Shown: positions 10,619 through 21,166 of the stretch, piece by piece
Layout of the letters: the number at the start of each line of letters is the position of its first letter
Position numbering within the stretch: position 1 is the first letter of the stretch
Source of the DNA: a virus
IMG/VR virus record: IMGVR_UViG_3300027996_002186
Coordinates: 62,001-126,000 of that record
Reading direction: 5' to 3' (one strand)
DNA length: 64,000 nucleotides
The notes under the pieces: model-generated
Told to the model about the DNA's origin: nothing
The model's database searches: none
The model's input: only the letters and a program-made list of their open reading frames with translations
Program-made: the position numbers and the translations under genes

Positions 10619-11092
10619 TTAGATAATTATATTACCTTTATTTATATACTTTTTATTTTTAGTAAAAAGAAATGACTTAAATTCTTTATTTCCTCTTTCT
10701 GCATTACAATCTTTACAACAAACAACTAGATTTACTTGACAATTATTACCACCTTCTGATATGGGTACTATATGATCCGCCGTAGCGTTTTCATAACTTA
10801 ACTTTTCTTCACAATATAAACAAAGGCTACCTTTGTTTTTATTTATGAAATCTTTAGCGAATCCGCTAGTTCTTCTTTTAACATTTTTACCGCTATATTT
10901 TAGTCCGACCACAACAAAGTCTTTCATATATTTGAATTTTTTCCTATATATCTCACAAGATTTATAGTTCTTATTTACAATGACTACCAACTTTATTAAA
11001 AATTTCCATCTGTTGTATGTTTTCTTTTCTACTGAGAGAAAATGTGGGTGTTCCGATTTTACTAGGAATTTTATTACTTTTATTACTTTCAT
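10619..11092 (-). CDS. HNH endonuclease, probably homing
   Basis: 157 residues. The C-terminal half carries a clear McrA-type HNH module: CLYCEEKL, ADHIVPISEGG, NLVVCCKDCNAERGNKEF. The two Cys pairs bind structural zinc and the His of ADHIVP is the catalytic base. The basic N-terminal half (1-75) has no recognisable domain and could contact DNA. Free-standing HNH enzymes of this size in T4-like genomes are usually homing endonucleases that spread by cutting alleles lacking them; a defence or packaging role is less likely because the gene lies alone beside a decayed homing-type remnant and is oriented opposite to the primase. Confidence 0.75.
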   Translation of the reverse strand: MKVIKVIKFLVKSEHPHFLSVEKKTYNRWKFLIKLVVIVNKNYKSCEIYRKKFKYMKDFVVVGLKYSGKNVKRRTSGFAKDFINKNKGSLCLYCEEKLSYENATADHIVPISEGGNNCQVNLVVCCKDCNAERGNKEFKSFLFTKNKKYINKGNIII

Positions 11093-13249: not shown

Positions 13250-14008
13250 ATGCTAAATTATAAAGAGTATTTAAAGGAGGCCCAAGATAATCAAGTCGTT
13301 GTGTTGGATGATGGACAAGGTGGTAATATGTTTAAGACTGTTAAAAATGGTAGTAAGAACTCAATTACTTATCTTAATGCTGTTATAAAAAGGTTTATCG
13401 AAAGTGTTTATGGATCATCTGGGTTTGTTTATGGTAAACATACTGATATATTTATCGATAATAAGATAATTAATGGTGAGTATATATCAAAGATGGTTAA
13501 TAATTACACCATTTTTAAAAATGTGATAAGAATTAATAATATTAAAGAGGAAGAATCTTTTTATAATTTTATGTTATCTAATCTGAATAATATTTATTCA
13601 CCAAATGGTAAATTCTTTTTAGAACAATCATTACCTATTTTAATAAACACAACTAGAAGGGGAAATGTACTTGAAAAAATGGCTAAGGAATCCTTTTTAA
13701 AGTATTCTAAAGAAAAAGATATCGAGATTACTATACAAAACCCTTCTGTTGATGAAGATATAAACGGTGTTGATTTCAAATTCTTATCCAATGGTAGAAG
13801 TTTTACTGTTCAAGTAAAGCCATTTACTGATTATAAGTATATTGGTGATAAAATTTTCATAAAGACAGAAGGATCTTTATCATTGAATACAAACTACTTG
13901 ATACTATGTGATGGTAAGAATTGTATTAAATTAAGAAATACACCCTCTAATCCAGTTAAAATAAAAGGTAATACTTTTATTTCAAGTAAATCTAATCTAC
14001 TTATTTAA
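13250..14008 (+). CDS. PD-(D/E)XK nuclease-like protein with capsid-targeting-like N-terminus
   Basis: 252 residues beginning MLNYKEYLKEAQ, a variant of the shared N-terminal motif with L-K-E|A at residues 8-11. The C-terminal third carries what looks like a restriction-endonuclease-fold active site: a helix GNVLEKMAKESFLKY with Glu, then NGVDFKFL (Asp near residue 176) and, about ten residues on, FTVQVKPF (Q-x-K). The E...D...(E/Q)xK pattern is the usual PD-(D/E)XK metal site. If the N-terminal signal is real, this would be a nuclease carried in the head and injected. It ends 8 nt inside the convergent polymerase gene. The nuclease call is moderate; no specificity can be inferred. Confidence 0.5.
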   Translation: MLNYKEYLKEAQDNQVVVLDDGQGGNMFKTVKNGSKNSITYLNAVIKRFIESVYGSSGFVYGKHTDIFIDNKIINGEYISKMVNNYTIFKNVIRINNIKEEESFYNFMLSNLNNIYSPNGKFFLEQSLPILINTTRRGNVLEKMAKESFLKYSKEKDIEITIQNPSVDEDINGVDFKFLSNGRSFTVQVKPFTDYKYIGDKIFIKTEGSLSLNTNYLILCDGKNCIKLRNTPSNPVKIKGNTFISSKSNLLI

Positions 14009-15323
14009 ATCCACCGAATATATCCATTACCACACTCAATCTTCTTGTTATTTCTGGCATACCTAATGGTTCAATAATAGAATTAATTGGTGATAGTATT
14101 GATTTCTCAAATTGTATATCATAATCTATCTCAGGAGCAAATTCAATCGGGTAAGACCCTCTAGCATAAGCAAATGTGGAATTAACTGATTTATCTTTAC
14201 AGATATAATATTTAATCTTTGTACCAGATTTCATAAATTCATACTTATCTTGTAATTTCTTATCATTGTTCAATAAGTAATTATGATAAGCGGCCGCTTT
14301 AACAGCAAAGTGAGCTCCACTTATAAATTGTAATGGTAATGTTTTATCATTTAAAACTTTCTCATCATATTTATTACAAGATGATTGCATTGCGATATCA
14401 TCAACATCAGCCAATTCAAATTCCTTTCTAAGACCTTTTACCAATTTAAGTAAATCCTTTATATTGAATGTATCGGGATTCTCAAATAAATACTCTACTA
14501 TCCCAACAATCTTATCACGAGCAAAGGCTGGTGTGGATGACCTAACAAGTTCAACTCCTTTAGGATAAATATATTTCAATCTATCATATGGAATACCATC
14601 CTCATATAAAATATGTTGTATGTATTTTTTCTTAGCAATATTTATAATTGATTCTGATATTCTTTCAAGTTCAAAATCTTCTTTGTTTTCAACACCATAT
14701 GATTCTGCGTGTTTATCTAAACAATCTTTGAAGTAACCCTCATATTTTATTTGGTCAACTCCTAATATAAAATCAACCTCAGTAGACCAGTTCCAGATAA
14801 TATCATTTGTTAAAACTCCATCATCTATCATCTTATTTAACTTCCTATCTTTCACGAAGTTACCATCTATTAAAACTAACCCATAATCTTCTTTCAGAAG
14901 TTCTGTAAATTCCGTGATATCTTTTGACATACCCAAATAATTTGGATTATCTGTTTCTATCAAATCTCTTGATAGTATAATAAATTTCTTATCAATTGAA
15001 GATAGATATTCATCGTTAAATACTTGATCTCTCCAAGTACAATGGTCCATACAAGGTTTGAATGAAACAAAAATTGAATCGGTATCACCATAGATACTAA
15101 CATCCTCTTTCGTATCAATTGGTGTGATATCTTTTATATTTAATTGTTTGTGTAGCTCAGTATCAAGATGCCATTGATTATACCAATAATCTTGGTTATC
15201 ATCATCCATCTTTCTAGTCAATTCTCTACCCTCTGCTGTTATAGTACCTGCAACGTGGTTGTTATAAAGTATGAAGTATGGTGTTGCGAAGGCTCCATAA
15301 GAACCATTCAATACAAGTTTTAG
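14001..15323 (-). CDS. gp43: DNA polymerase (family B, gp43-like), C-terminal part
   Basis: The frame is open from the codon after the TGA at 15324-15326 down to 14001 (441 codons). It starts LKLVLNGSYGAFATPYF, i.e. motif B with the dNTP-binding Lys and the Asn-x-x-Tyr-Gly. Motif C YGDTDSIFV lies about 74 residues later, then thumb-domain segments matching T4/RB69 gp43 (GVELVRSSTPAFARDKI) and a C-terminal clamp-binding-like end (MDIFGGFK). Only a TTG is available as start in this frame, and it lies after the essential lysine, so independent translation would give a defective protein. The exonuclease and motif A parts are not in the window, so the gene is split, as in some Aeromonas T4-like phages. 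Confidence 0.85.
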   Translation of the reverse strand, partial: LKLVLNGSYGAFATPYFILYNNHVAGTITAEGRELTRKMDDDNQDYWYNQWHLDTELHKQLNIKDITPIDTKEDVSIYGDTDSIFVSFKPCMDHCTWRDQVFNDEYLSSIDKKFIILSRDLIETDNPNYLGMSKDITEFTELLKEDYGLVLIDGNFVKDRKLNKMIDDGVLTNDIIWNWSTEVDFILGVDQIKYEGYFKDCLDKHAESYGVENKEDFELERISESIINIAKKKYIQHILYEDGIPYDRLKYIYPKGVELVRSSTPAFARDKIVGIVEYLFENPDTFNIKDLLKLVKGLRKEFELADVDDIAMQSSCNKYDEKVLNDKTLPLQFISGAHFAVKAAAYHNYLLNNDKKLQDKYEFMKSGTKIKYYICKDKSVNSTFAYARGSYPIEFAPEIDYDIQFEKSILSPINSIIEPLGMPEITRRLSVVMDIFGGFK

Positions 15324-15329
15324 TCATTT

Positions 15330-15355
15330 ACCCCCACTTAAAATAAAGCGGGGGT
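15330..15355 (-). other. Hairpin in the 40-nt coding gap of the polymerase gene
   Basis: On the minus strand ACCCCCGCTT pairs with AAGTGGGGGT around a 6-nt loop (10 bp, one G-U). It fills most of the gap between the CTT codon at 15361-15363, followed at once by TAA, and the CTA codon at 15321-15323. No U-tract follows, so it is not an ordinary terminator. The layout recalls the bypass hairpin of T4 gene 60. Confidence 0.7.
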
Positions 15356-15357
15356 GA

Positions 15358-15462
15358 TTAAAGAGCGAGTTGAAGGGCATTGTAGTAATCTACTTCCTTT
15401 TTCAACTCGCTCGCTTTAATTTTTAATGACTCGATTTTTTTTATTTTTTCGGTTTTTGTCAT
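15358..15462 (-). CDS. gp43: N-terminal piece of the polymerase C-terminal half (before the gap)
   Basis: A 34-codon frame from ATG 15460-15462 to TAA 15358-15360. It ends ELKKEVDYYNALQLAL, which is the helix that normally leads into motif B (Q-x-x-x-K-x-x-x-N in T4 and RB69). Joining its last Leu to the following frame restores QLALKLVLNGSYG with the exact family spacing. It is therefore read as the true start of the split polymerase half, broken by the 40-nt gap. The 12 nt ending in the last sense codon pair with 15401-15412, forming a second hairpin, and use codons (GCG, AGC, CTC) that are rare in this AT-rich genome. Confidence 0.65.
   Translation of the reverse strand: MTKTEKIKKIESLKIKASELKKEVDYYNALQLAL
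15363..15412 (-). other. Coding-region hairpin just before the polymerase gap
   Basis: Arms 15363-15374 and 15401-15412 are perfect 12-nt inverted repeats (AGCGAGTTGAA/TTCAACTCGCT plus one pair) with a 26-nt loop. The structure ends exactly at the last sense codon before the in-frame TAA. Confidence 0.65.
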
Positions 15463-15614: not shown

Positions 15615-15643
15615 TCAGGCGCAATTTGGTCAGATAACAGAAC

Positions 15644-15986
15644 TATACGCCTATATGGTATTTGTTATGCTGATTGATAACCACTTATATTCTCACCATC
15701 ATAATAGTCGATACCTATCCAATTTTCATAATCTTCTACATTCACGTTTATATAATTCCCATTGTGGTAATAATTCACCAGGTATAATAATAAACAATAT
15801 AGGATCTGCCATTAGCTCTGTACCTCTTTTAACCTTTGTTTGTTTTGATTTTAATTTTACAATATCAACCTTTGATACATTATCAACTCCATATCTCTCT
15901 AAACAGGTTTCTTTTATTTTAGATATGATTGATTTTTTATTTATCTTATATTGATTATAGTAATGGAAATAGTAGTAACCTATCAC
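15644..15986 (-). pseudogene. Fragment of a homing-endonuclease-like protein
   Basis: An 86-codon frame (15726-15986, GTG start) contains ISKIKETCLERYGVDNVSKV, a repeat typical of large phage homing-endonuclease-associated proteins, and stops at 15726. One frame over, downstream sequence reads on (VEDYENWIGIDYYDGENISG, ending near 15644), suggesting a frameshift. There is no ATG start and no HNH or GIY-YIG core, so it is judged decayed. Together with the fragment at 15528 it fills the stretch between the polymerase and the gene at 16049; I see nothing else there. Confidence 0.4.
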
Positions 15987-17649: not shown

Positions 17650-18669
17650 TTATATATTAAATTGTGAATTTACAATTTCAATAGATTTGCTTAATCTATC
17701 TCTCCAATTACCACCCACTTCTATATAATTACAATTGTACTTTTCCAATTCTGATTTAATAACATTATAATGTTCCATCCTTTCTTCTAAAAACTGTCGT
17801 GTTCCGTCTTGAACACCATCACAATCAGGTTTCAATAGTAAGTATAAATCATAATTACTATTTTTATATACTTTATCTAGTAATATGTTTTCAATACTTT
17901 TATAACCATTTGGAAAATACATTTTTGAGAAGAGGTATGTTGTTATATCCTCTGTATCACAGAATAATAATTTATTGGATGTCTTTATTTTTTGATTTTC
18001 CAATTCTTGTCGACCAACAGATATTGGGATAAAGTCTTCTATTCCTATTTTATTACCATTTCTTTCAAATACAGTTCTGCCATATTCCTCAACAAAATTT
18101 GTGTTATAGTATTTAGCTAAATTTTCACTCATTGTTGATTTCCCAACAGATTCCGGCCCCATAATAACAATTCTCTTAACGAAGTAGGGTTTTATTTCAT
18201 CCGGTATAAATTCCCAACTATCAAAGGGGTTAGTTCTTACTTTAGTTCCTGATATAGGAAATTTCTTTCTTTCTTTATCAACTAGATAGTGTTTTATACC
18301 CAAATATTTAGCAAAATCATCACCGTAATTCTCAGAAGTGAATACACAATCTAATTTACCAACAAATTTATAAACAAATGGAACCCAATAAGAATAAAAT
18401 TCATCAAGTGATTTACATTCGTGTTCATATTGTGGCATCTCACTATCATCAACAGAGTGTATTATGACATTTGGGTTACTTTCATATATTTCTCGTAAAG
18501 ATTTTACTCTTAATTTACCAGGGATTGTTTGTGTAGGATTATGACAAGCTAAAACATGAACAACTTCCGAATTTTCCAAAGCGGTGTCTATTAAATAAAG
18601 GTGCCCGGTGTGTAATCCGTAGAATTTACCCAATACTAAACTACTTTTGTACTTTTTATCCATTTCCAT
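17650..18669 (-). CDS. nadR: NadR-like NMN adenylyltransferase / ribosylnicotinamide kinase
   Basis: 339 residues in two domains. The first is a nucleotidyltransferase: GKFYGLHTGH at residues 14-23 and ISGTKVR at 139-145, the (H/T)xGH and ISxTxxR signatures of NMN adenylyltransferases. The second is a P-loop kinase with Walker A GPESVGKST at 171-179, matching the nicotinamide riboside kinase domain of NadR. Together they would turn nicotinamide riboside into NMN and then NAD. The N-terminal helix-turn-helix repressor domain of E. coli NadR is absent, so this form is purely enzymatic. Its start overlaps the end of pnuC by 34 nt, a tight coupling of transport and phosphorylation. Confidence 0.92.
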   Translation of the reverse strand: MEMDKKYKSSLVLGKFYGLHTGHLYLIDTALENSEVVHVLACHNPTQTIPGKLRVKSLREIYESNPNVIIHSVDDSEMPQYEHECKSLDEFYSYWVPFVYKFVGKLDCVFTSENYGDDFAKYLGIKHYLVDKERKKFPISGTKVRTNPFDSWEFIPDEIKPYFVKRIVIMGPESVGKSTMSENLAKYYNTNFVEEYGRTVFERNGNKIGIEDFIPISVGRQELENQKIKTSNKLLFCDTEDITTYLFSKMYFPNGYKSIENILLDKVYKNSNYDLYLLLKPDCDGVQDGTRQFLEERMEHYNVIKSELEKYNCNYIEVGGNWRDRLSKSIEIVNSQFNI

Positions 18670-19184
18670 AATCCAATTGATGCTAATATTAAGAATAAAC
18701 CATATACATATGATGATACGTCTAAGCCATTTGATGAGAATAATACTATTAATAGAATGTCATTTATAATCCAAAGAATCCAAGCTTCTATTTTCTTCTT
18801 CACTAATAGGAATGTAGCCATAACACCCAATGTCATTACAGCAGAGTCTAGAAATGGCATATTACCACCATATTCACTTGTTATACAAAACGTGGTCATG
18901 TATAGAATAATGGTGCTGGTTGTTAGATATCCTAATTGCTTTTTATTTAACCAACTAATAGCCAATTCTTCTTTTGGTTTGCTCCAGTTTATCCAACCTA
19001 GTATAGATTGGACTAGAAATACACCTTGTAAAACTAAATCACCAAGTAAGTTATGGTTGTAAAAGATAACAGAGTAAAAGATAACTCCTACGATACCAAA
19101 TGGCCAACATAATATGTTATCTTTTACTGTTAGAATAACAGCTAGTAACGTGAATAAAACAGCTACTGCCTCAATAATATCCAT
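18636..19184 (-). CDS. pnuC: PnuC nicotinamide riboside transporter
   Basis: 182 residues, almost entirely hydrophobic, with six to seven predicted transmembrane helices. Family landmarks are NILCWPFGIVGV near residue 23, SILGWINWSKPKEEL near 60, and EAWILWIINDILLIV near 132. PnuC proteins move nicotinamide riboside across the inner membrane by facilitated diffusion; trapping depends on phosphorylation by NadR, whose gene overlaps this one. Its ATG shares a base with the end of the TonB-dependent receptor gene, so the three genes are almost certainly co-translated from one mRNA. Other pnuC-fold transporters carry thiamine, but the NadR partner points to nicotinamide riboside. Confidence 0.92.
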   Translation of the reverse strand: MDIIEAVAVLFTLLAVILTVKDNILCWPFGIVGVIFYSVIFYNHNLLGDLVLQGVFLVQSILGWINWSKPKEELAISWLNKKQLGYLTTSTIILYMTTFCITSEYGGNMPFLDSAVMTLGVMATFLLVKKKIEAWILWIINDILLIVLFSSNGLDVSSYVYGLFLILASIGLWKWIKSTKVV

Positions 19185-21166
19185 TAAATCTTAAATTTAA
19201 TTGTAGCGAAGAAGTTGAATGGTGGATTAACAAAGAAGTGTCTATCTGTACCAACTGCGTATCCATTAGTGTAATAACTTTCATTAGTTATGTTATTTAC
19301 TCTAATACTTAAACTGTGTTGTTTATAGAATTTATAATCAACTTGAGCATTTAATACCACAAAATCTGGTGTTGTGAGTGTGTTCTCCATATCAATATAA
19401 GACTCTGAGTGGTACTTCACATCAAATCCAACTCTTATTCTATCTTTTGAATCTTTAATCACCACACCTTGGTTAATTATCAAATTAGGTGTGTATAATG
19501 GACTAAATTCTTTCCCATCATCATTAATTCTGTTATAAGAGTATGATGATGTATTAACTAATAATAAGTTAATTTTCTTTTTACTAAATAAACTTAAAGT
19601 CATATCTAATTCAATACCACTTCTAAAAGAGTTTTCAACATTAGTCATTAACGGTAAACCATTTGAACCAATTGCTCCTAATAATGTTATTTCATTTTTG
19701 AAATCCATATAGTATAGATTACCTTGTAACTTAAAGTTATCTAATGTTATATTAGTACCTAATTCATAATCAACAACCGATTCTGGTTTAACATCTATGT
19801 AACTAATAGGATCATCTTCTCCCATAAAAATATCATTTCTTGTTGGTTCTCTTTGTGATTGACCAACAGAAGCATAGAAGTTATAGTGTTTACATTTCGT
19901 GAACATTATACCACCTTTTGGGTTGAAGAATGTCCATTCAAATGGTGCCATATCCATAGTACCTTGATACTTGAAATCAACGTATCTAACTTGAGCATCT
20001 CCGAAAAGAGTAAACTTCTTTATATCATATCCGAATTTAACAAATGATGATACTTCGTTTTTAAGTCCTTTATTAGAATATAGTTCATCTGTGTTTGCTA
20101 ATACAGTCATAGCATGTCGTCTATCATACATATTACCACTAACACCAATATTCAATCTATATTTATTACCAGTTAAGTTATAGTTAGAGGTTAATCCATA
20201 GAAGTTAGAACCTAAATTGAAGTTAAGAACATCATCCCCTCCACCAAGTGGTAGTAAATCTAATCCCCAATCTCCATCTAATCTATTATAGAAAGCGGTA
20301 GTCGTTAAATTTGACTTGTTAAAAAAGTGTTTGTGTTTTAAGATAACCATACTTTGTGTAAAGTCGTCATTTTCTCTAGTAGTATTATAGTTAGTTCTTG
20401 GTTCTGATTTTATATCATCTTCTGAAACTGCGAACCAAGCCATTTCATTAGTTGTGTGTCCATTGAATGCTGTTATTTTAACAAAATCCTTTTCTCCATA
20501 ATAACCACCACTTAAAAAGAATGATTGTCCTTCACCACCTGAGTTATATTTGTATCCATCACTCGCGTAATTTGAATATCTAGTATAAAAGGCTGTTTTA
20601 TTTTTTAGTAATCCTGTTGAGTTTTCAATACTAACTCTATAAGTATTAAATGATCCATATCCAATTTGTCCTTCTGTTCCTTTCTTTAATCCCGTTGGTG
20701 ATTCAAAATTAATAGAACCAGCATATGAGGAAACACCGTTTGTTGATGTACCAACACCACGTTGTATCTGCATTGACCTAATTGAGTTTGTAAAATCTGG
20801 GTAATTTGAGAAATATACACCTTGGTCCTCTGGTTCATTAAGAGGAACCCCATCGAGTGTCATATTAATTCTAGTTTGGTCAATACCTCTCAATCTAAAG
20901 TAAGTATATCCCATATTGTGACCGCCATCTGTTGATGATGTTACACTTGGTGTTGTGTTTAATAACAACGGTAATTCTTGTGTATGATACATAACATCTA
21001 TATCATCTTTACTGATTGTTTTCTGAGTGACTGGTGTTTTAGATCCAGCTCTAATTCCTTGTATAGTAACTTCTTCAATTTGCACCATTGATGTGTCAAC
21101 CTTTAGAGTATCCTGTGAATACGATGTTGATGTTGCTAATAAAAATAAAAATAGTAATTTCTTCAT
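19184..21166 (-). CDS. TonB-dependent outer-membrane receptor
   Basis: 660 residues. A signal peptide (MKKLLFLFLLATSTSYSQ) is followed by a TonB-box-like EEVTIQG near residue 32, a plug domain (about 40-150: ELPLLLNTTPSVTSSTDGG, YFRLRGIDQTRINMTLDGV, SIRSMQIQRGVG) and a long barrel rich in alternating aromatic strands (YGSFNTYRVS, YASVGQSQREPTRNDI near 435). The end (NNITNESYYTNGYAVG, FFATIKFKI) is typical of the last strands. Such receptors import vitamins, siderophores or glycans across the outer membrane using TonB energy. It is followed directly by pnuC and nadR, so nicotinamide riboside or a precursor is the likely ligand. There is no SusC-type N-terminal extension. No frameshift or truncation is seen. 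Confidence 0.93.
   Translation of the reverse strand: MKKLLFLFLLATSTSYSQDTLKVDTSMVQIEEVTIQGIRAGSKTPVTQKTISKDDIDVMYHTQELPLLLNTTPSVTSSTDGGHNMGYTYFRLRGIDQTRINMTLDGVPLNEPEDQGVYFSNYPDFTNSIRSMQIQRGVGTSTNGVSSYAGSINFESPTGLKKGTEGQIGYGSFNTYRVSIENSTGLLKNKTAFYTRYSNYASDGYKYNSGGEGQSFFLSGGYYGEKDFVKITAFNGHTTNEMAWFAVSEDDIKSEPRTNYNTTRENDDFTQSMVILKHKHFFNKSNLTTTAFYNRLDGDWGLDLLPLGGGDDVLNFNLGSNFYGLTSNYNLTGNKYRLNIGVSGNMYDRRHAMTVLANTDELYSNKGLKNEVSSFVKFGYDIKKFTLFGDAQVRYVDFKYQGTMDMAPFEWTFFNPKGGIMFTKCKHYNFYASVGQSQREPTRNDIFMGEDDPISYIDVKPESVVDYELGTNITLDNFKLQGNLYYMDFKNEITLLGAIGSNGLPLMTNVENSFRSGIELDMTLSLFSKKKINLLLVNTSSYSYNRINDDGKEFSPLYTPNLIINQGVVIKDSKDRIRVGFDVKYHSESYIDMENTLTTPDFVVLNAQVDYKFYKQHSLSIRVNNITNESYYTNGYAVGTDRHFFVNPPFNFFATIKFKI

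Follow-up and report, generated by a model that had tools for sequence, protein, structure and literature searches.

This locus raises the question of how a DNA polymerase with an intact motif B could be made from a reading frame that stops within that motif. The gene lies in a window of 64,000 nucleotides, the whole stretch of DNA that was analysed, which corresponds to positions 62001-126000 of a 483,262-base phage record. It occupies 14001 to 15462 on the minus strand, and the ORF that opens with the ATG at 15462 reads MTKTEKIKKIESLKIKASELKKEVDYYNALQLAL and then meets a TAA stop codon. When this frame is joined to a second frame across a gap of 40 nt, the product reads QLALKLVLNGSYGAF, which is the Q-x3-K-x3-N-x2-YG pattern of motif B. 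The initial annotation had proposed translational bypass as a candidate, and after comparison with relatives this remains the best explanation. We consider it highly likely, judging from sequence comparison, that the interruption is a programmed bypass element of the T4 gene 60 kind, in a family of mobile cassettes made up of an endonuclease gene and a bypass element.

Going beyond that annotation, the gene is the C-terminal half only of a split family-B DNA polymerase. A PF00136 match is divided between both halves, and the joined product corresponds to the C-terminal part of the polymerase, starting shortly upstream of motif B. A separate gene of 512 aa, about 95 kb away in the same record (G000:C1:171954-173492), encodes the N-terminal half. 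A full polymerase elsewhere had been named as a point to check, and a PF00136 search of the 483-kb record found no second copy. The same two-gene layout is present in four complete huge-phage records (634, 636, 642, and 735 kb), the closest of which, LR745206, has an uninterrupted C-terminal part that is 84% identical. Among relatives of the C-terminal half, those from viral contigs are 56-100% identical and those from phage records 84%, and a PDB search with the polymerase retrieved weak family-B matches only. Replication of the largest Mahaphages has been predicted in Bacteroidetes (PMC7162821), and the hosts of the nearest complete relatives are likewise predicted to be Bacteroidetes. Family-B polymerases are known that are encoded by two genes separated by a homing endonuclease or by an untranslated insert (PMC2988022), but that work describes no gap within a gene that would need bypassing. 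In Chryseobacterium phage MA9V-2 (L062) the polymerase is likewise divided between two genes, and a TnpB-family endonuclease is annotated at the split.

The first reading frame in the window (15361 to 15462) comprises 34 codons, of which the last is the predicted take-off codon CTT (Leu, 15363-15361), followed directly by the TAA at 15360-15358. The second frame (14001 to 15323) runs from motif B (KLVLNGSYG) to the C terminus and includes motif C, YGDTDS. Comparison with uninterrupted alleles delimits an untranslated gap of 37 nt (15324 to 15360), followed by a putative landing codon, CTA (Leu, 15321 to 15323), with reading resuming at the AAA at 15320; the 40 nt between the take-off codon and this AAA are the gap plus the landing codon. 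The predicted gap-spanning stretch of the protein is NALQLALKLVLN. A hairpin of 10 bp, ACCCCCGCTT/AAGTGGGGGT (15330 to 15355), lies in the gap 5 nt past the take-off codon. Upstream of it, within coding sequence, is a second stem-loop (15363 to 15412), supported by RNAfold, synonymous shuffles, and covariation, in which 15412-15401 pair with 15374-15363 to form a 12-bp base beneath an apical GTAG/CTAC pairing, and the 3' arm reaches the first base of the take-off codon. The codons of this coding hairpin are rare in the window (GCG 7%, AGC 4%, and CTC 2% of the codons for their amino acids), and CTA makes up 11% of the Leu codons. The initial annotation had described the break at motif B with the TAA after NALQLAL, the join that restores the motif, both hairpins, and the pair of Leu codons, all of which, with their coordinates, agree with our reading of the sequence.

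The gap is not a chance feature, given that the pattern CCCCC-N4..24-GGGGG occurs once in the 483-kb record, that three further metagenome contigs (L004-L006) have the same allele at 99-100% identity, and that more than 30 further interrupted alleles exist. An outer pairing of GAGTCATT upstream with AATGACTA at the landing site can be drawn for the window and some other alleles and is absent from the rest, and we do not claim it. In a search for a phage-encoded Leu tRNA, ARAGORN named only Met, Gln, and Cys genes among four tRNA-model matches.

The comparison of the same site in related phages, suggested in the initial annotation, returned both uninterrupted alleles and interrupted ones that differ in sequence, length, and position. 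The allele set was gathered from five viral-contig scans together with phage records, with duplicates removed. In all 18 uninterrupted alleles the anchors YYNALQ and GAF are separated by exactly 33 nt. A further 33 distinct alleles are interrupted and have 36-48 nt more between the anchors; these lengths represent all three classes modulo 3, and the interruptions lie at six positions. The counts, from metagenomic contigs, are not numbers of independent events, since the alleles are kin to one another. With lengths in every class modulo 3, the inserts are not simply translatable. Named by the take-off residue in QLALKLVLNGSY, the insertion sites are 1a (A, n=5), 1b (the second L, n=15, including the window allele), 3 (V, n=2), 4 (G, n=2), 5 (S, n=1), and 6 (Y, n=8). 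One additional allele, L028, was left out of the count, as it differs from L030 by a single G in the G-run of the gap hairpin (inserts of 42 and 41 nt), which may be real variation or a homopolymer sequencing error. When about 300 loci were searched for hairpins of this kind breaking other genes, polymerase sites alone turned up, and this held even beside related endonucleases elsewhere.

Every interrupted allele (33/33) has a GC hairpin just past the take-off codon, beginning 5-6 nt beyond it and ending 4-10 nt before the landing codon. The 5' arm is usually C-rich, the stems are mostly 9-12 bp long, and the loops are mostly of four bases, often of the GNRA or UUCG type; the automatic stem search chose an alternative pairing in L030 and L042, for both of which RNA folds show the usual hairpin. 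The long gap stem of L020 includes the take-off codon, and in no other interrupted allele does the gap stem reach that codon. In 29 of the 33 alleles a stop codon stands at the first or second position past take-off, and the other four have no stop among the first three codons. Outside site 6 the take-off and landing codons belong to the same codon box in 25/25 alleles, with CTT or CTG leading to CTA in 15/15 cases at site 1b, GCT to GCT or GCA in 5/5, GTT to GTT or GTA in 2/2, GGT to GGT in 2/2, and TCT to TCA in 1/1. In 23 of these 25 alleles the landing codon is the first cognate triplet past the hairpin, and the two exceptions, both at site 4, involve a GGN that overlaps the G-run of the stem. 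At site 6 the match holds in 0/8 alleles, versus 25/25 elsewhere: the take-off codon is for Tyr and the landing triplets are AAC, AGC, GAC, TAA, and CAA, none of them cognate, with two of the three possible pairs with the Tyr anticodon retained in seven of the eight alleles. Site 6 may thus reflect either relaxed pairing or a different mechanism. Alternative take-off codons for this site were considered and set aside, as each deletes or adds residues in the conserved NGSYG.

The stem-loop in the coding sequence follows the insertion site, its 3' arm ending at, or a few bases from, each allele's own take-off codon at all six sites. When each allele was compared with 300 synonymous recodings, 28 of 30 interrupted alleles gave z values between -3.8 and -6.9 (-5.4 for the window allele), versus -2.6 to +1.8 for the uninterrupted ones. 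The two exceptions are L014, in which the stem-loop is weak (z -2.0), and L020, which is without one (z -0.1). Across 18 alleles of site 1, 84.9% of the cells are paired and six pairs show double changes; none of 500 shuffles scored as high, and at most 48% were paired when the structure was slid along the sequence. For 10 sequences of sites 4-6 the covariation was not significant. The coding hairpin is confined to interrupted alleles and has the look of a required part.

The pattern of selection indicates that both sides of the gap are selected as protein. Past the gap, dN/dS among relatives is 0.025-0.09, including pairs in which both alleles are interrupted (0.053 for L009/L011). The upstream peptide is conserved in all alleles, with a pooled pN/pS of 0.20 over 22 codons and no stops. 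This N-terminal peptide of 34 aa is rich in Lys, but it is conserved in uninterrupted alleles as well, so no element-specific nascent-peptide signal is evident. Start codons past the gap are not conserved; many alleles offer none before an ATG that lies 29-38 codons beyond the resume point and past motif B. Purifying selection on both sides, together with the lack of a conserved restart and of any other polymerase, argues that both pieces are selected as protein, and since an intact motif B needs the two pieces joined, we infer that the joined polymerase is made.

The anatomy of the element suggests how this may happen, with a role for each hairpin. After reading 34 codons the ribosome would arrive at CTT, its P site occupied by peptidyl-tRNA-Leu, and its A-site decoding would be stalled by the stop codon and by the GC hairpin 5 nt ahead, just past the A-site codon. 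The tRNA would then unpair and the ribosome slide forward, while the 5' stem-loop, whose 3' arm had earlier been inside the ribosome, would refold behind it and block its return. Re-pairing would occur at the first Leu CUN codon past the gap hairpin, CTA, and decoding would restart at AAA, leaving motif B intact. A UAG anticodon would make a U-U mismatch at CTT and pair perfectly at CTA, a difference that may favour the move.

The main rival to bypass is removal at the level of RNA, in which the 40 nt would be cut from the mRNA, as a minimal intron, either by a phage or host nuclease with an RNA ligase or by a ribozyme, and the joined message then read normally. Such removal would likewise account for all the length classes, the intact protein, and the two hairpins, and it would take away the difficulty of the unmatched codons at site 6. 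That difficulty, in eight alleles, is one of the points against bypass. Others are the position of the take-off codon outside the gap hairpin, the Lys-rich peptide that uninterrupted relatives share, the lacking or weak stem-loops of L020 and L014, the four alleles with no stop near take-off, and the non-significant covariation at sites 4-6. Against RNA removal, no intron family matches, with only two Rfam matches, both far below their gathering scores, and the 3' ends of the gaps have no common sequence and lie at varying distances from the hairpin. The same-box codons at 25/25 gaps and the retention of CTA in 15/15 site-1b alleles are predicted by re-pairing of a tRNA and not by splicing. 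We regard RNA removal as unlikely. A group I or group II intron in particular was rejected, as no ribozyme core came near the Rfam threshold and 40 nt is too short for one; an intein was rejected as well, as the inserts usually contain stops, can be of any length modulo 3, and have no in-frame splicing domain.

It is also conceivable that the polymerase half is produced in pieces, with the 34-aa peptide ending at the TAA and the rest reinitiating at an internal codon. The polymerase is, after all, already split between two genes, and the second frame in the window offers a TTG at 15311, which is the only start before codon 33 and, as the initial annotation had observed, lies after the motif-B Lys. 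Yet the starts that follow the gap shift from allele to allele as described above, often to a point from which motif B could no longer be included, and the position of the break varies among six sites in proteins that are otherwise nearly identical, so that reinitiation seems very improbable. Still harder to credit is that the gene is simply inactivated or the gap an assembly artefact, as a stop that breaks the frame might by itself suggest: the window allele was recovered from three further contigs and the 33 different interrupted alleles from many metagenomes, while the low dN/dS downstream, even where both alleles are interrupted, and the lack of another polymerase copy in the record speak against inactivation.

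Bypass of the gap would also fit the company that the element keeps. Just upstream of the polymerase half in the window is a decayed, putative homing-endonuclease gene with a DUF7487 repeat (15640 to 15986, minus strand), identified by a PF24308 match to the ORF 15986-15729 (E=6e-7) and, as far as about 15640, by eye; it retains the motif ...ERYGVDNVSK... and, frameshifted, ...NWIGIDYYDGE.... Intact homologues occupy the same place in other interrupted alleles, but in divergent orientation. The intact neighbour gene is 255-385 aa long and in most cases has DUF7487 repeats and an invariant C-terminal block, YPTIDHK...NLCITKR..NS.K, of which the part from DHK looks HNH-like by eye, and in L041 the neighbour is a GIY-YIG/NUMOD3 endonuclease according to Pfam. 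An endonuclease gene adjoins 21/33 interrupted versus 1/18 uninterrupted alleles (Fisher p=7e-5), a count that ignores relatedness and includes a few contigs with little upstream sequence. The single uninterrupted case, L024, has a GIY-YIG/NUMOD3 endonuclease at the usual cassette position, which possibly has another target or has outlasted a lost bypass element.

Both the presence and the site of the interruption are scattered over the polymerase tree, on which the label "uninterrupted" takes 14 changes, compared with a mean of 14.8 for shuffled labels, and well-supported branches force at least 10. The endonuclease tree, in contrast, separates sites 1/3 from 4-6 in two changes (5.2 when shuffled, with 5/500 and 2/500 as low), and so follows the insertion region as the polymerase tree does not. 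Between L018 (site 6) and L016 (no interruption), the DNA is about 93% identical except for two separate insertions about 160 nt apart, one of 858 nt with the endonuclease gene and the other the 39-nt gap. Between L011 (site 1a) and L014 (site 6), identity is 73% from the endonuclease site to the gap, with mostly synonymous differences, versus 96-99.7% past the gap, which is what joint movement of endonuclease, exon, and gap, as in co-conversion, would be expected to leave. These comparisons display the features of a homing cassette, with an endonuclease adjoining the element, filled and empty sites in close relatives, and co-conversion of the flanking exon, and the element in the window is one of a mobile family with many relatives. 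In large phages the cassette would consist of a homing endonuclease gene adjoining the polymerase half and a bypass element that probably removes the target site of the endonuclease, whose activity and target we infer from this arrangement; in the window the endonuclease would have decayed and the bypass element been left behind.

Other mobile elements of polymerase genes, namely inteins and group I introns, likewise carry homing endonucleases and sit in conserved catalytic motifs. The inserts described here differ in being 36-48 nt long, in containing stop codons, and in having no ribozyme or protein-splicing domain, and on present evidence they appear to be removed by neither RNA nor protein splicing. 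At a different position, the motif C of the C-terminal half (YGDTD|S), alleles L037, L042, L043, L044, and L052 have large in-frame inserts that end in ...HTFI.NDI.VHNS and look like inteins, and some alleles have both a motif C insert and a bypass element.

To our knowledge, bypass has so far been well studied in nature only in one phage gene and in some yeast mitochondria. In the phage gene, T4 gene 60, translation halts at the take-off codon GGA before a UAG, a stem-loop folds within the A site, and the peptidyl-tRNA comes unpaired; a 5' stem-loop that refolds behind the ribosome then promotes sliding to a matched codon (PMC5009743, PMC11194080). This sliding is highly processive up to 56 nt (PMC11194080), and all of the polymerase inserts are shorter. 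The likeness includes a stop after take-off, matched codons, a hairpin ahead, and a 5' stem-loop behind, and it extends beyond what the initial annotation had noted to the location in a split replication gene, in its C-terminal half, with take-off within the first ~50 codons (PMC5009743, PMC2988022) and to an upstream endonuclease gene, apparently of HNH type, that is decayed in both T4 (mobA, an annotated pseudogene) and the window. The likeness is one of layout, and we claim no sequence homology. Gene 60 encodes a topoisomerase and has a single 50-nt gap, whereas here the gap is at motif B of a DNA polymerase, spans 36-48 nt, and occurs at six sites in at least 33 alleles beside endonucleases of DUF7487 type or GIY-YIG; moreover, the take-off codon here lies outside the gap hairpin, the base of the 5' stem-loop abuts it, and landing is 4-10 nt past the hairpin. 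Since take-off is not inside a stem-loop, our claim is that the element works like gene 60, not that it is a gene 60 element.

The mitochondria of Magnusiomyces capitatus, with 81 inserts, offer a second parallel, in that short blocks at many positions are restored at translation and the match between take-off and landing is sometimes imperfect (PMC5009743). There, however, mitochondrial ribosomes translate 12 interrupted genes and bypass is apparently independent of mRNA context, whereas here one gene is affected and two hairpins and codon identity are conserved. For decades, efficient bypass in phages has been known essentially from a single well-studied natural example, although counterparts had long been presumed to exist (2016 review, PMC5009743). 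In the open-licence literature we found no previous description of a phage DNA polymerase with a bypass. The 33 alleles at six sites, with uninterrupted controls, form a natural library from which rules of spacing, hairpin, and codon identity can be read and tested, and they support the idea that a bypass element and a homing endonuclease can form a mobile unit. Gene callers will truncate such polymerases. A broader reading, which we favour with some reserve, is that bypass may be a general means by which widespread mobile elements hide, with endonucleases and tiny bypass elements, in place of introns or inteins, entering essential genes, and with such elements having repeatedly arisen, moved, and diversified in large phages under flexible codon rules that would include the non-matched Tyr landing.

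Two other features of the surrounding region may be mentioned. An HNH endonuclease gene of 157 aa lies at 10619-11092 on the minus strand, and homologues of it are found about 3-6 kb downstream of the start of the polymerase half in many relatives, interrupted or not. At 17650-21166, also on the minus strand, three genes in a row encode a NadR-like NMN adenylyltransferase/ribosylnicotinamide kinase, the nicotinamide riboside transporter PnuC, and a TonB-dependent outer-membrane receptor of 660 aa, with the NadR and receptor matches falling below the NCBIfam cut-offs; such a receptor beside a pair of genes for uptake and salvage of NAD precursors is unusual in a phage.
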